Source: Streptomyces cavernicola
GTDB lineage: Bacteria > Actinomycetota > Actinomycetes > Streptomycetales > Streptomycetaceae
Reading direction: 5' to 3'
Assembly: GCF_029968035.1 (NCBI RefSeq)
Contig: NZ_JASCIQ010000015.1
Location: 62,001-126,000, forward strand
DNA length: 64,000 bases
Both the position numbers and the translations under genes were made by a program. Below, one piece after another: positions 2,461-38,610 of this stretch (position 1 is its first letter; each line of letters opens with the position of its first letter). The notes beneath the pieces were generated by a model. That model made no database searches and was not told the DNA's origin. It was given only the letters and a program-made list of their open reading frames with translations.

Positions 2461-3168
2461 ATGAAGATCGCAGCAGGTCAGTTCACATGCGTTCCGGCTG
2501 ACGTGGCCGCCAACGTCCAGCAGATGACCGCCCTCGCAGGCCAGGCTCGCGCTCAAGGTGCAGAGCTCGTGGTGTTTCCCGAGCTGGCCGTGACCGGGTA
2601 CGAGCTTGAGGCAGTACTCGCTGATCCCGGTTTGTGGGTGACACCAGAAGATCCGCGCTTGGATGCGATCCGGGAGAGCGGCACCGCCACCGTCGTCAAT
2701 TGTGTAGCGGCCACCGACGGGCCCCGGCCTGCGATCGAGACGCTGGTCTTCGGGGCTGACGGCGAGCTGCTCACCACTTACCGCAAGCAGAACCTGTTCG
2801 AGCACGAGCAGGCGGTCTTCACCGCTGGGCAGCATGATGGGCGATTCGAGTTCGGAGGAGTCCGCTTCGCGCTCGCCACGTGCTACGACAACCACTTTCC
2901 CGACCTGACCGCGCGGGAGTCTGCTGACGGCTGCCAGGTGCACCTGGCCAGCTCGCTCTACGGAACCGGTGGCGGAGCTGAGGAGCTCGCGGCGATCTAT
3001 CCCGGCATCGCCAAAGACTTGAACATGCACGTCGTGCTAGCGAACCATGTCGGACCGGCCGGGCCATGGACTGGCTGCGGCCGTTCCTCCGTGTGGGCCC
3101 CGGGCGGCGACGTTCTGACAGAGGCCGACACGCAGACAGCCATGCTCGTCGTGGCCGATGTCGGGTGA
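2461..3168 (+). CDS. Carbon-nitrogen hydrolase (nitrilase superfamily)
   Basis: Encodes 235 aa with the family's Glu-Lys-Cys triad: E41 (VVFPELAVTGYE), K109 (YRKQNLFEHE) and C141 (ATCYDNHFPD). Such enzymes hydrolyse amides or nitriles in the cytoplasm; the substrate is not predictable. I prefer the ATG at 2461 (MKIAAGQF, AGGA 9 nt upstream) to the GTG at 2443. Third codon positions hold clearly more A/T than in neighbouring genes, which suggests recent acquisition. The stop lies 12 nt from the stop of the IS transposase remnant, so the last residues may be altered by insertion. Family members are usually 250-280 aa, so mild C-terminal truncation is likely. Confidence 0.8.
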   Translation: MKIAAGQFTCVPADVAANVQQMTALAGQARAQGAELVVFPELAVTGYELEAVLADPGLWVTPEDPRLDAIRESGTATVVNCVAATDGPRPAIETLVFGADGELLTTYRKQNLFEHEQAVFTAGQHDGRFEFGGVRFALATCYDNHFPDLTARESADGCQVHLASSLYGTGGGAEELAAIYPGIAKDLNMHVVLANHVGPAGPWTGCGRSSVWAPGGDVLTEADTQTAMLVVADVG

Positions 3169-31765: not shown

Positions 31766-32605
31766 ATGGGATTCACGGACCAGCGCTTCAACGTCAACCT
31801 GTCGATCCTCTTCACGGAACTCCCGCTCCTGGAGCGTCCCGCGGCCGCCGCCGCGGCGGGCTTCACCGCGGTCGAGCTGTGGTGGCCCTGGGTCGACGCC
31901 CCCACCCCTGAGCAGGCCGAGCTCGACGCCCTGAAGAAGGCCATCGAGGACGCAGGCGTTCAGCTCACGGGCCTGAACTTCTACGCCGGCCAGCTGCCGG
32001 GGCCGGACCGCGGTGCGCTGTCCATCCCCGGTGAGGAGTCGGAGAAGTTCCGCGCCAACCTCAAGGTGGCGGCGGACTTCGCCCAGTCCCTCGGCTGCAA
32101 GGCGCTCAACGCCCTGTACGGCAACCGCGTCGACGGCGTCGACCCGGCCGCGCAGGACGAGCTCGCCCTGGAGAACCTGAAGCTGGCCGCCGCCGAGGCG
32201 GACCGCATCGGCGCGATCCTGCTCATCGAGGCGCTCAACGCGCCCGAGTCCCCGAAGTGCCCGATCGTGAGCGCCCCCAAGGCGATCGAGGTCGTGGACG
32301 CGGTGAACGCCGCCACCGGGCTCGGCAACGCCAAGTTCCTCATGGACCTGTACCACCTGTCCATGAACGGCGAGGACCTCGACGAGATCATCGCGAAGTA
32401 CACCGAGAAGACCGGCCACGTGCAGATCGCCGACAACCCGGGCCGTGGCGCTCCGGGCACCGGCGACCTGCCCCTGGAGTCTCTCCTCGACCAGCTGAAG
32501 CAGGCCGGCTACGAGGGCTTCGTCGGCCTGGAGTACAAGCCCGGCGACAAGCCGAGCGCCGAGGCCTTCGACTGGCTGCCGGCCGAGGCCCGCGCCGCTC
32601 GCTGA
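31766..32605 (+). CDS. hyi: Hydroxypyruvate isomerase
   Basis: Encodes 279 aa, a TIM-barrel enzyme of the xylose-isomerase-like group. It interconverts hydroxypyruvate and tartronate semialdehyde. Seen are FNVNLSILFTELPLLERPAA at the start, VELWWPW, LLIEALNAPESPKCP with the metal-binding Glu, FLMDLYHLSMNGED and GFVGLEYKPGDKP with the second Glu. The unit hyi-glxR is codirectional with a 111-nt gap. It works with Gcl and GlxR to bring glyoxylate from allantoin into glycerate. Confidence 0.93.
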   Translation: MGFTDQRFNVNLSILFTELPLLERPAAAAAAGFTAVELWWPWVDAPTPEQAELDALKKAIEDAGVQLTGLNFYAGQLPGPDRGALSIPGEESEKFRANLKVAADFAQSLGCKALNALYGNRVDGVDPAAQDELALENLKLAAAEADRIGAILLIEALNAPESPKCPIVSAPKAIEVVDAVNAATGLGNAKFLMDLYHLSMNGEDLDEIIAKYTEKTGHVQIADNPGRGAPGTGDLPLESLLDQLKQAGYEGFVGLEYKPGDKPSAEAFDWLPAEARAAR

Positions 32606-32716
32606 CTCTCCCGAGGCTTCCCTCGTTGCGCCCCCTCGGCGCGCCAGAGTTGCCGCCCGACTGTGCGGCGGGCGGCAACTCACCCCCGTATCAAGCGTTT
32701 TGAAAGAGGCACCCTG

Positions 32717-33610
32717 ATGAGCAACCTTCCGAAGATTGCGTGGATCGGCCTCGGCATCATGGGCTCCCCCATGTCCGAGAACCTGATCAAGGCGGGCTAC
32801 GACGTCACCGGCTTCACCCTGGAGCAGGACAAGCTCGACCGCCTCGCCGCCGCCGGCGGCACCGCGGCCAAGTCGATCGCCGAGGCCGTCAAGGACGCCG
32901 ACGTCGTCATCACGATGGTGCCCGCGTCGCCGCAGGTCGAGGCCATCTCCTACGGCCCCGAGGGCATCCTGGAGAACGCCAAGTCGGGCGCGCTGATCAT
33001 CGACATGTCGTCGATCACCCCGCAGACCTCCGTCGACCTGGCCAAGAACGCCAAGGAGAAGGGCATCCGCGTCATCGACGCGCCCGTCTCCGGCGGCGAG
33101 GCCGGCGCCATCGAGGCCGTCCTGTCCATCATGGTCGGCGGCGAGCAGGCGGACTTCGAGACCGCCAAGCCGATCCTCGAGGCCCTCGGCAAGACCATCG
33201 TGCTCTGCGGCCCGCACGGCTCCGGCCAGACGGTGAAGGCCGCCAACCAGCTGATCGTCGCCGTCAACATCCAGGCGTGCGCCGAGGCCGTGGTCTTCCT
33301 GGAGAAGTCCGGCGTGGACCTGAAGGCCGCGCTCGACGTCCTCAACGGCGGCCTGGCCGGCTCGACCGTGCTGACCCGCAAGAAGGACAACTTCCTGAAC
33401 CGGGACTTCAAGCCGGGCTTCCGGATCGACCTGCACCACAAGGACATGGGCATCGTCACCGACGCCGCCCGCAACGTCGGCGCCTCGCTGCCGGTCGGCG
33501 GTGTGGTGGCCCAGCTGGTGGCCTCGCTGCGCGCCCAGGGTGACGGCGGCCTCGACCACTCGGCGCTGCTCCGCGCCGTCGAGCGCCTCTCGGGCAACCA
33601 GGTCGCCTGA
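32717..33610 (+). CDS. glxR: 2-hydroxy-3-oxopropionate (tartronate semialdehyde) reductase
   Basis: Encodes 297 aa of the 3-hydroxyisobutyrate dehydrogenase family. The Rossmann site is [20 protein letters not shown], the substrate loop is [11 protein letters not shown] and the catalytic Lys sits in [18 protein letters not shown]. It reduces tartronate semialdehyde to D-glycerate with NAD(P)H. The ATG at 32717 has GAAAGAGG upstream. Hairpin-like sequence follows the stop. Confidence 0.95.
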
Positions 33611-33655: not shown

Positions 33656-33730
33656 CCCCAGATCCCCGGGCGGCGCCCGCGCTGACACCTGTCCTGTCGC
33701 GCCCAGGCGCGGGCGTTGCCCGGAACATCT

Positions 33731-34016: not shown

Positions 34017-35474
34017 ATGCCGCAGCGCGTGCTTACCACCGAGTCCGGCGCCCCGGTCGCCGACAACCAGAACTCCGCCACCGCCGGCGTCGGCGGCCCC
34101 ATCCTCCTGCAGGACCAGCACCTGCTGGAGAAGCTCGCCCGCTTCAACCGCGAGCGCATCCCGGAGCGCGTGGTGCACGCCCGTGGCTCGGGCGCCTACG
34201 GCTACTTCGAGGTGACCGACGACGTCACCGGCTTCACCTCCGCCGACTTCCTCTCCGAGGTCGGCAAGAAGACCGAGACGTTCCTGCGGTTCTCCACCGT
34301 GGCGGACAACCTCGGTGGCGCGGACGCCGTCCGCGACCCGCGCGGCTTCGCGCTGAAGTTCTACACCGAAGAGGGCAACTACGACCTCGTCGGCAACAAC
34401 ACCCCGGTGTTCTTCATCAAGGACCCGATCAAATTCCCCGACTTCATCCACTCCCAGAAGCGCGACCCCTTCACGGGCAAGCAGGAGCCGGACAACGTCT
34501 GGGACTTCTGGGCGCACGCCCCCGAGGCCACGCACCAGATCACCTGGCTCATGGGCGACCGCGGCATCCCCGCCTCGTACCGCCACATGAACGGCTACGG
34601 CTCCCACACCTACCAGTGGACCAACGCCAAGGGTGAGGCCTTCTTCGTCAAGTACCACTTCAAGACGAACCAGGGCATCCGCTCCCTCTCCGCCGAGCAG
34701 GGCGCCGAGCTCGCGGGCAAGGACCCCAACTCGCACCAGACGGACCTGCTTCAGGCCATCGAGCGCGGTGTGAACCCGTCCTGGACCCTGTACGTCCAGG
34801 TCATGCCGGCCGCCGAGGCCGCGGACTACCGCTTCAACCCGTTCGACCTCACCAAGGTGTGGCCGCACAAGGACTACCCGCTGCAGCGCGTCGGCCGCCT
34901 GGTCCTGGACCGCAACCCCGACAACGTCTTCGCCGAGGTCGAGCAGGCCGCGTTCTCCCCGAACAACTTCGTTCCGGGCATCGGCCCCTCCCCCGACAAG
35001 ATGCTGCAGGGCCGCCTGTTCGCCTACGCGGACGCGCACCGCTACCGCCTGGGCGTCAACCACACCCAGCTCGCGGTGAACGCCCCGAAGGCGACCGAGG
35101 CCAACAACTACGGCCGTGACGGCCTGATGGCCTCCAACTCGCAGGGTCGCGGCGCCAAGAACTACGAGCCCAACTCGTACGAGGGCCCCGTCGAGACCGG
35201 CCAGCCGCTGGCCGCCCCGCTGGCCGTCAACGGCCACACGGGCACCCACGAGGCCCCGGCCCACACCAAGGACGACGACTTCTTCCAGGCCGGTGAGCTG
35301 TACCGCCTGATGTCCGAGGACGAGAAGAAGCGTCTGGTGGCGAACATCGCCGGCGGCCTGTCCCAGGTCACCCGCGACGACGTCATCGAGAAGAACCTCG
35401 CCCACTTCCACGCCGCCGACGCCGACTACGGCAAGCGCGTCGAGGAGGCCGTCCGCGCCCTGCGCGAGGACTGA
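34017..35474 (+). CDS. katA: Catalase (monofunctional, heme)
   Basis: Encodes 485 aa, a small-subunit clade 3 type catalase. The active-site His lies in [16 protein letters not shown]. Other marks are [20 protein letters not shown], the catalytic Asn in [16 protein letters not shown], and the proximal heme Tyr in [14 protein letters not shown]. It converts H2O2 to water and O2 in the cytoplasm. It sits after hyi-glxR but has its own promoter, whose operator matches that of the uricase operon. Detoxifying uricase-derived H2O2 is therefore a likely job. Confidence 0.96.
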
Positions 35475-35569
35475 GCGAGCAGCAACACGAAGGCTCCGTA
35501 CGGTGTTTGACGGGAGGTCAGGCTCCGTACGGGAATGCCCTCGCCTGGGACCCGGATGAGGGGTGGTCC

Positions 35570-35848
35570 AGGGCAGGGCGGCCCGCTTCGGCGGGCAGCT
35601 GGGGCGAAAGCCCCCGGGATCGCGGCGGCGTGCGAGCCAGTGCGGTGGTAAAGGTGCGACGGGCCCTTCTCGACCTGAGGGAAGGGAGACCGGGCTCCAT
35701 CGCACCCGCCGCGATCCCAGCACCTCGACTCCGTCCGGCGGCGCGAACGACCAGTCGCGCCCGGCCTTGCGCCGCCGGACGGCAAGCAACACAACTCCAG
35801 AGCCAGAGCGCCGAGTTCACGGACGGTCCCGTGAACCCGGCGCTCTTT
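35570..35848 (+). ncRNA. Candidate structured RNA downstream of katA
   Basis: No gene is credible between katA and the terminator, but folding potential is high. Seen are GCCCGC-TTCG-GCGGGC (35581-35596, UUCG tetraloop) and GGGGC-GAAA-GCCCC (35601-35614, GNRA tetraloop). A long stem pairs GGGATCGCGGCGG (35616-35628) with CCGCCGCGATCCC (35706-35718), extended by TGCGA/TCGCA; inside it are GAGCC/GGCTC and CCCTTC/GAAGGG. Next is a 12-bp stem GTCCGGCGGCGC/GCGCCGCCGGAC (35733-35780), then the terminator. It matches no class I know. It could be a katA 3' UTR element or a separate small RNA. Confidence 0.5.
35805..35848 (+). terminator. Intrinsic terminator after katA/structured region
   Basis: AGAGCGCCG-A-GTTCACGG pairs with CCGTGAAC-CCGGCGCTCT, an imperfect stem of about 17 bp with a 6-nt loop, running into TTTT. 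It is 330 nt past the katA stop, so the transcript would carry the structured segment. Confidence 0.88.
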
Positions 35849-35861
35849 TGCGTCCGCCCCG

Positions 35862-35975
35862 TCAGGGGCGCGGGGAACTGCGCGACCAGCCACGACGGCG
35901 GGTCCGACGAAGAACAGGCAAGGGAGCCCGGGGGCGCAGCCCCGGAGGCTGGGGCCGGGGGGCTGCAGGCACCCA
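35862..35975. repeat. Mosaic intergenic repeat block 3 (short)
   Basis: One copy of GGGGCGCGGGGAACTGCGCG with CCAGCCACGACGGCG (35865-35900) is followed by a GGGGGCGCAGCCCC hairpin. It lies between the terminator and the start of the next gene, and lacks the outer arms seen in longer blocks. Confidence 0.8.
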
Positions 35976-36027
35976 ACTTCCCGGCCCCGCAGGCCCGTTA
36001 CCGTTGCCACCGCATCAACCGATCACG

Positions 36028-36678
36028 ATGGGACACGTCTTGCATTCCACCCTCATGAGGCAGCGCATCACCGACCGGTTCGGTGACGTTCCCGGGCTCC
36101 TCGGGCCCTTTCACGTCGAGCGGTTCGGGTTGATGAAGGAGAAGGAGCCGATCGCGCCGAAGGAGCTCAGGCCCGAGGTCTTCAGCGAGCAGCGGATGAC
36201 GGGAGGCGCGTTCGGGAAGCTGTGGGCGGCCGGCATGCAGATCTTCTGGAGCGAGAAGGGGAACCCCACAGGCCCTTCGGACTTCGGCGCCGATCCGGCG
36301 CGCCGGCCGGAGTTCCGGGAGAAGGGCAAGGCGTTCTTCGGCGGCTGGCAGAGCACCGCGGGGCAGCTCCTCGCCGCCGTGCAGCCGGTGTCCCGCTGGT
36401 GGTACGTGTGGAGCTTCCTTGCGCTCACCCCGCAGGGACTGCGGGTGTACTACGCCCCCAGCCACCAGGCCAGCGCGTTCCAGCTCGCCGAAGGCGTCCT
36501 CGCGGGCCCTGAGTTCCCGCGTGAGCGCCTCGCGTGGATCCGGCGGCACAAGGACGGCAAGCACCACGAGTTCGGCTTCACGGACGGCTCCTGGGTGACG
36601 CTGCACGTGGCCGACCACGAGGAGTTCGGCCGGCAGGTTCCGGGCGTGCTCGAACCGCAGGCGCCCGTACCGTTCTGA
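36028..36678 (+). CDS. Conserved-looking protein of unknown function
   Basis: Encodes 216 aa, mainly soluble. No motif was recognised. Trp-rich segments stand out (GKLWAAGMQIFWSEKG, SRWWYVWSFLALTPQGLRVY), as does FGFTDGSWVTLHVADHEEF near the end, which resembles small PH-like or lipid/wall-interaction folds. The ATG at 36028 is used; an ATG at 36055 is also possible, and neither has a strong ribosome site. It sits between katA and gcl and converges with gcl on a strong terminator, so membership in the glyoxylate set is doubtful. Confidence 0.75.
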   Translation: MGHVLHSTLMRQRITDRFGDVPGLLGPFHVERFGLMKEKEPIAPKELRPEVFSEQRMTGGAFGKLWAAGMQIFWSEKGNPTGPSDFGADPARRPEFREKGKAFFGGWQSTAGQLLAAVQPVSRWWYVWSFLALTPQGLRVYYAPSHQASAFQLAEGVLAGPEFPRERLAWIRRHKDGKHHEFGFTDGSWVTLHVADHEEFGRQVPGVLEPQAPVPF

Positions 36679-36759: not shown

Positions 36760-38547
<1,788 letters not shown>

Positions 38548-38610
38548 CGAGTACTCCTGCGTCGACCTGTCGGGCACTTCCACCGACACCACCTGGTCGT
38601 TTCCGGTGGT

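Follow-up and report, generated by a model that had tools for sequence, protein, structure and literature searches.

A conserved, structured non-coding RNA in Streptomyces, about 350 nt long, behind the hyi-tsr(-katA) genes

In the 64,000-nt stretch of Streptomyces cavernicola DNA analysed here (the window), the interval at 35570-35848, downstream of the catalase gene katA, is packed with potential hairpins, which raises the question of whether it encodes an RNA in its own right and to which genes such an RNA would belong. A preliminary description had taken it for a possibly new structured RNA, either a 3'-UTR regulator of katA or a stand-alone molecule. All the folds named there are present in the interval and are unlikely to have formed by chance, as none of 200 shuffles reached the fold energy of -169.1 kcal/mol (shuffle mean -135.7, sd 5.4). 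The opposite strand folds equally well (z -6.86), and thus fold energy cannot name the coding strand of the RNA. The long-range stem, given as 18 bp with two smaller stems inside, measures 13 + 6 bp flanking a bulge (35616-35635/35700-35718) and does enclose two hairpins (35636-35649 and 35664-35686), while a stem reported as 12 bp has 14 (35731-35744/35769-35782). The terminator named there is a hairpin with 18-nt arms (35805-35846) whose T-run has just four T (35846-35849), and the terminator scan does not flag it. Two points have to be corrected. The UUCG and GAAA hairpins (35581-35596 and 35601-35614, both on the + strand) exist as well, but their segment (35580-35615) lies outside the conserved core and occurs in the window's row only, among 197 distinct element sequences, so that they are no evidence for the RNA. 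Moreover, the conserved unit begins upstream of the interval, at about 35496, and extends to 35849.

This unit, read on the + strand, is a row of hairpins, A to E, with fixed loops on stems most of which are free to change. Hairpin A (35496-35532) has a variable stem with closing GAC/GUC pairs and a GGGAG loop (35512-35516), and hairpin B (35537-35579) carries the loop CGGAUGAGGGGU (35553-35564) on a stem that is likewise variable. Domain C (35616-35718) is composed of the stems P1 (35616-35628/35706-35718) and P2 (35630-35635/35700-35705), the P4 hairpin (35664-35686) and a near-invariant segment (35636-35654, GCCAGUGCGGUGGURAAGG). Hairpin D (35731-35782) has a 24-nt loop (35745-35768) on its 14-bp stem, and the terminator-like hairpin E (35805-35849) shows ACGGUC at the loop and a short T-run. 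A twin of D, hairpin T, is located between tsr and katA (33668-33721, + strand); its variable 15-bp stem bears a 24-nt loop, usually UGACANCUGUCCUGUCGCGCCCAG, which has 16 nt in common with the usual D loop (GUCCUGUCGCGCCCAG), of which the window's D copy is a variant. Hairpin T is also found in operons where the remainder of the RNA went unrecognised, and it has no Rfam match.

A DNA search of 150 relatives found 80 that matched at E <= 1e-3, the strong matches falling within the genus and many of them beginning at the long-range stem. Thirty loci were aligned and a covariance model of domain C (model R1) was built from 29 of them; the remaining one (L030) was left out because of a hairpin inserted in its P1 strand. 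A similar palindromic insert in the 5' strand of P1 was observed in L218 and L231, at the place where L030 has its own. At E <= 0.01 the model, which describes domain C alone, detected the RNA in 256 of 392 Streptomyces genomes, nearly always in one copy. In an order-wide draw 133 of 197 genomes were positive at E <= 0.1, within one of six genera, and 59 genomes from the class outside Streptomyces yielded a single match (E 0.4), which is at chance level. In addition, the core pattern was found in at least 118 stretches of named genomes, and the 80 among the matches listed are all titled Streptomyces. The model under-counts, since one genome (G468) is model-negative yet has A, B, C and D recognisable by eye, and another (G029) has B and C. 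Hairpin A was recognised in 94 (strict pattern) to 99 (loose pattern, a few of them false) of 197 elements, hairpin D in 98 of 191 and an E-type hairpin in 97 of 191, and in three loci (L277, L278 and L280) hairpins resembling A, B and D can be seen by eye although no C is recognisable. This recognition of A, D and E each in about half of the elements, together with the occurrence of B and D without C in some operons, shows that the RNA is modular.

It is nearly certain that the folds belong to a genuine conserved structured RNA family, and compensatory changes are plentiful in the stems and clear in A, B and C. Hairpin arms were compared in a fixed register from the loops, with identical arm pairs counted once, and set against 300 permutations; these leave kinship uncorrected, and more weight can be placed on the slid controls and on how many pair types occur. 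For hairpin B (156 distinct), 76.3% of the cells are paired versus 24-45% with slid partners, and several pairs lie far above the 300 permutations (one reaches 135, where the permutation maximum is 102). Its loop is exact in 149 of the 167 elements that the pattern picked up. Hairpin A (91 distinct) reaches 73.6% versus 30-52%, several of its stem pairs exceeding all 300 permutations, and hairpin T (148 sequences, 122 distinct) 88.4% versus 29-68%. Across the inner seven pairs of P4 (152 distinct), 134-151 are paired, and six of the seven exceed all permutations. In the 29-row alignment of domain C, 95.5% of the cells are paired versus 44-61% when slid, and both-side changes occur in 13 pairs versus 3.3 in shuffles; support for the outer P2 pairs is weak. 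The stem of hairpin D hardly varies and therefore shows little covariation. The balance of GU over AC favours the + strand in A (47/29), P4 (220/91), T (116/20) and D (20/7), is neutral in P2 (36/32) and points to the other strand in B (31/60). On balance, this measure together with the gene direction appears to favour the + strand, leaving B unexplained. Rfam 15 gave no match at or above the gathering score, either in the window or at the loci of seven relatives, and weaker matches close to the element, below that score, all have E >= 1. With abundant compensatory changes and no known family at that score, the suggestion of a possibly new structured RNA is supported.

To which genes does it belong? 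In the window hyi, tsr and katA follow each other on the + strand and gcl lies on the - strand. The first gene (31766-32605) is hydroxypyruvate-isomerase-like and is named hyi with the reserve that its TIGR03234 score, 315.5 bits, is below the cut-off of 353.45 (it also matches PF01261). The second, tsr (32711-33610), encodes tartronate semialdehyde (2-hydroxy-3-oxopropionate) reductase (TIGR01505, 491 bits, above the cut-off), and katA (34017-35474) a catalase (PF00199, 5e-189). The gene for glyoxylate carboligase, gcl (36760-38550, start at about 38550 approximate; TIGR01504, 1165 bits, above the cut-off), is convergent with the RNA. A predicted protein of 207 residues downstream of the RNA (36055-36678) has no Pfam match. 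The gene context was read at 152 loci, which represent 146 distinct C sequences and several of which share a genome. At 149 of them tsr or katA precedes the element on the same strand at a distance of no more than 700 nt; two of the three exceptions (L137 and L174) have too little upstream DNA to judge, and the third (L074) is a second copy located elsewhere in its genome (G229). That displaced copy (C domain at 2975-3082, - strand; B, C and E by eye, D absent) adjoins a transposase fragment (PF01609) and a gene for an iron-containing redox enzyme, away from the glyoxylate genes.

The element follows tsr without an intervening katA in 7 of the 30 and 32 of the 152 loci, and in six further loci of the 152, representing five distinct places (L056 and L113 being the same), katA is reduced to fragments. 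The adjoining RNA is still recognisable beside a fragmentary katA in L056/L113, L058, L083, L110 and L148, and in L018. In a sample of 60 genomes, hyi is present in all 20 that are positive with the model; 25 of the 40 model-negative genomes have hyi (one of them partial) and 15 do not, so that every hyi-less genome is RNA-negative. The co-occurrence with hyi and the katA-less loci indicate that the RNA is associated with the glyoxylate genes rather than with katA. The link to katA in the earlier proposal of a katA 3'-UTR regulator or stand-alone RNA thus needs amending: the RNA, which may or may not be a separate transcript, is a feature of the end of the whole hyi-tsr(-katA) row. A scan that covers part of the Streptomyces promoter types found no sigma-70-like promoter at 35300-36060, and the locus accordingly resembles the s-SodF type in having a same-strand gene upstream (149 of 152 loci) and no such site of its own. 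Furthermore, in L076, L082, L084 and L087 the match to the convergent gcl starts 311-344 nt after the start of C, which leaves little room for a downstream gene on the + strand, and the RNA is therefore hardly a 5' leader, which speaks against a riboswitch controlling a downstream gene.

As to its action, we consider a 3'-UTR-borne regulatory RNA working through its loops to be the best mechanism, with a probability of about 50%. Fixed loops on freely changing stems suggest that the contacts are made by the loops. The RNA would be transcribed with the hyi-tsr(-katA) operon and probably released from the operon transcript by processing, and its loops would then act in trans, for which, judged from sequence, the chances are about even. 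The likeliest contact would be pairing of loop B, CGGAUGAGGGGU, with ACCCCUCAUCCG in the leader of a malic enzyme gene, some 140-185 nt before the start codon, by which expression of the glyoxylate genes might adjust malic enzyme.

This candidate came from a search for complements of three loops (B, the C motif and D/T) in 22 RNA-positive genomes. The exact sequence ACCCCTCATCCG occurs at 54 places in these genomes, compared with 3 for the reversed control; 22 of the places are in the malic enzyme leader and 16 in the RNA itself, the remaining 16 being scattered. The leader site is found once per genome (21 by script, G044 by eye), and the gene matches PF00390/PF03949. In 16 of the 20 genomes compared (G231 and G044 left out) the complement between B and the leader is 15-16 nt long, versus at most 13 nt in composition shuffles of the leaders (30 each). 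Because the B loop itself was the query that led to this site, the match does not count as independent evidence. Of 21 leaders folded by prediction, 15 place the site in a local CCCC-UCAUCC-GGGG hairpin and 5 pair it with an AGGGGU Shine-Dalgarno sequence. If the leader motif sequesters its own Shine-Dalgarno sequence in those five, B might free it there and activate translation; a destabilising action, like that of s-SodF on sodN, would be equally possible. In favour of the pairing, two RNA-less genomes (G047 and G486) keep the leader hairpin with a different loop (AAAUCC and UCACCC in these two leaders); against it, G486 still carries ACCCCUCA. In G468 the B loop is CGUUGAGGGGU, yet the leader is unchanged (ACCCCUCAUCCG), and the longest match between B and the leader drops to 12, 10, 10 and 11 nt in G062, G080, G522 and G420, respectively; in none of these five genomes does the leader co-vary with the changed B. 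We put malic enzyme mRNA as the target of loop B at about one chance in three, and regard the predicted pairing as a serious lead, not proof. Within the leader itself, about 65 nt are highly conserved and comprise a near-palindrome, GTAAGAAGGTTCTTTAC, followed by two hairpins (at about 1450-1650 of L327, and in 21 other genomes), for which no Rfam match was found.

The other loops gave no comparable partner. For the C motif ACCACCGCACTGGC, searched with at most one mismatch in the 22 genomes, the element is the sole exact match among the matches listed (nine genomes), and these contain no conserved partner; the counts with mismatch are higher than the control in 18 of 22 genomes (27 versus 10 in G049), equal in two and lower in two. 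The motif TCCTGTCGCGCCCAG is not enriched in its own genome (33 matches at up to two mismatches versus 68 for the control). Exact complements of the D/T loop lie, by their coordinates, in or near the operon, and no conserved partner was seen in the 22 genomes. The C-rich 6C RNA, considered as a partner, is present in the genome. A wider role as a hub, in which every loop would address its own partner, with B freeing or blocking translation of malic enzyme and both C and the loop common to T and D binding others, and by which the transcript end of one operon would co-ordinate central carbon flow across the genus, seems to us unlikely.

Among the explanations without a target in trans, the RNA could be a cis-acting 3'-UTR element whose hairpins end and protect the operon mRNA, a reading supported by its fixed position at the end of the gene row, by the terminator-like hairpin that closes 97 of 191 elements and by its never being detected by the model without hyi in the 60-genome sample; we find this doubtful, because protection or termination needs stable stems, whereas here the stems vary while the loops stay, and because modules come and go, as seen by eye in L277, L278 and L280. 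Rather improbable is a ligand- or protein-binding RNA, with the loops docking an RNA-binding protein or C forming a metabolite pocket on the operon mRNA. The almost invariant segment of C fits such a role, and the 16-nt loop that D and T have in common, flanking katA, suggests one shared binder, but several genomes leave little room for a controlled downstream gene, and CsrA, a known binder of GGA loops, has no match in the genome. A DNA-level palindrome or mobile repeat, suggested by the second copy near a transposase fragment in G229, is very improbable, given the single copy in nearly all positive genomes, the one place shared by 149 of 152 loci and the predominance of GU over AC seen for A, P4, T and D, which fits an RNA strand. 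A short coding sequence (ATGAGGGG... to ...CGGTGGTRA), open in the window and some relatives and ending in CEPVRW-stop, can practically be dismissed and was rejected as a general explanation, as the stems change in a compensatory manner and the distance from the B-loop ATG to the C motif falls in all three phases (51/40/74 in the 165 of 194 rows with the ATG motif, a few of the rows being chance matches outside the element), so that no conserved reading frame exists and the peptide is not kept in phase.

The closest known system to the favoured reading, a loop-acting regulator borne on a 3' UTR, is s-SodF of Streptomyces coelicolor, which is reported to be processed from the sodF 3' UTR and to act on sodN mRNA through a complementarity of 16-19 nt that joins the 3' UTR to another gene's leader; the paper also recommends searches for such complementarity (PMC3919588). 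The two RNAs are alike in their 3'-UTR position with no promoter found nearby, in a stretch complementary to sequence upstream of a remote gene (15-16 nt here) and present in many species, and in retention of the RNA in a case of decayed neighbouring coding sequence. They differ in that s-SodF has about 90 nt and one antisense stretch, whereas the present RNA, known from sequence alone, has about 350 nt and several hairpins with different fixed loops, one of which holds the complementarity. The 6C RNA (RF01066) is likewise an actinobacterial family matched in this genome, but its 75-position model with C-rich stretches matches elsewhere in the genome and not in the window. Sponge RNAs of the CsrB/RsmZ type also have several hairpins with GGA-containing loops, but they act on CsrA; a CsrA sponge was rejected, as PF02599 has no match in this genome and is detected in 3 of 14 control genomes. 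A literature search gave no title or abstract opening on this locus, and no passage on it was found in the available main texts of PMC2422843, PMC3765725, PMC11077062, PMC4681348, PMC5775266, PMC8388888, PMC8079986, PMC2864571 and PMC8780764, whose supplementary tables may still list it among sRNAs. Conserved 3'-UTR RNAs are a known kind; within the reach of these searches, the present family, its construction as an array of hairpins and the twin hairpins T and D are new.

To our knowledge, few Streptomyces RNAs have a known target. The RNA described here is widespread in the genus, strongly structured and linked to a particular set of metabolic genes, and it has a specific candidate partner in malic enzyme. 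If the pairing is true, it would add a further circuit from a 3' UTR to a leader in Streptomyces alongside s-SodF, and if the regulator reading is true, the RNA may link two parts of carbon metabolism, glyoxylate use and malic enzyme. Should the target prove wrong, the RNA, unmatched in Rfam and represented by 197 distinct sequences, would still be a useful annotation.
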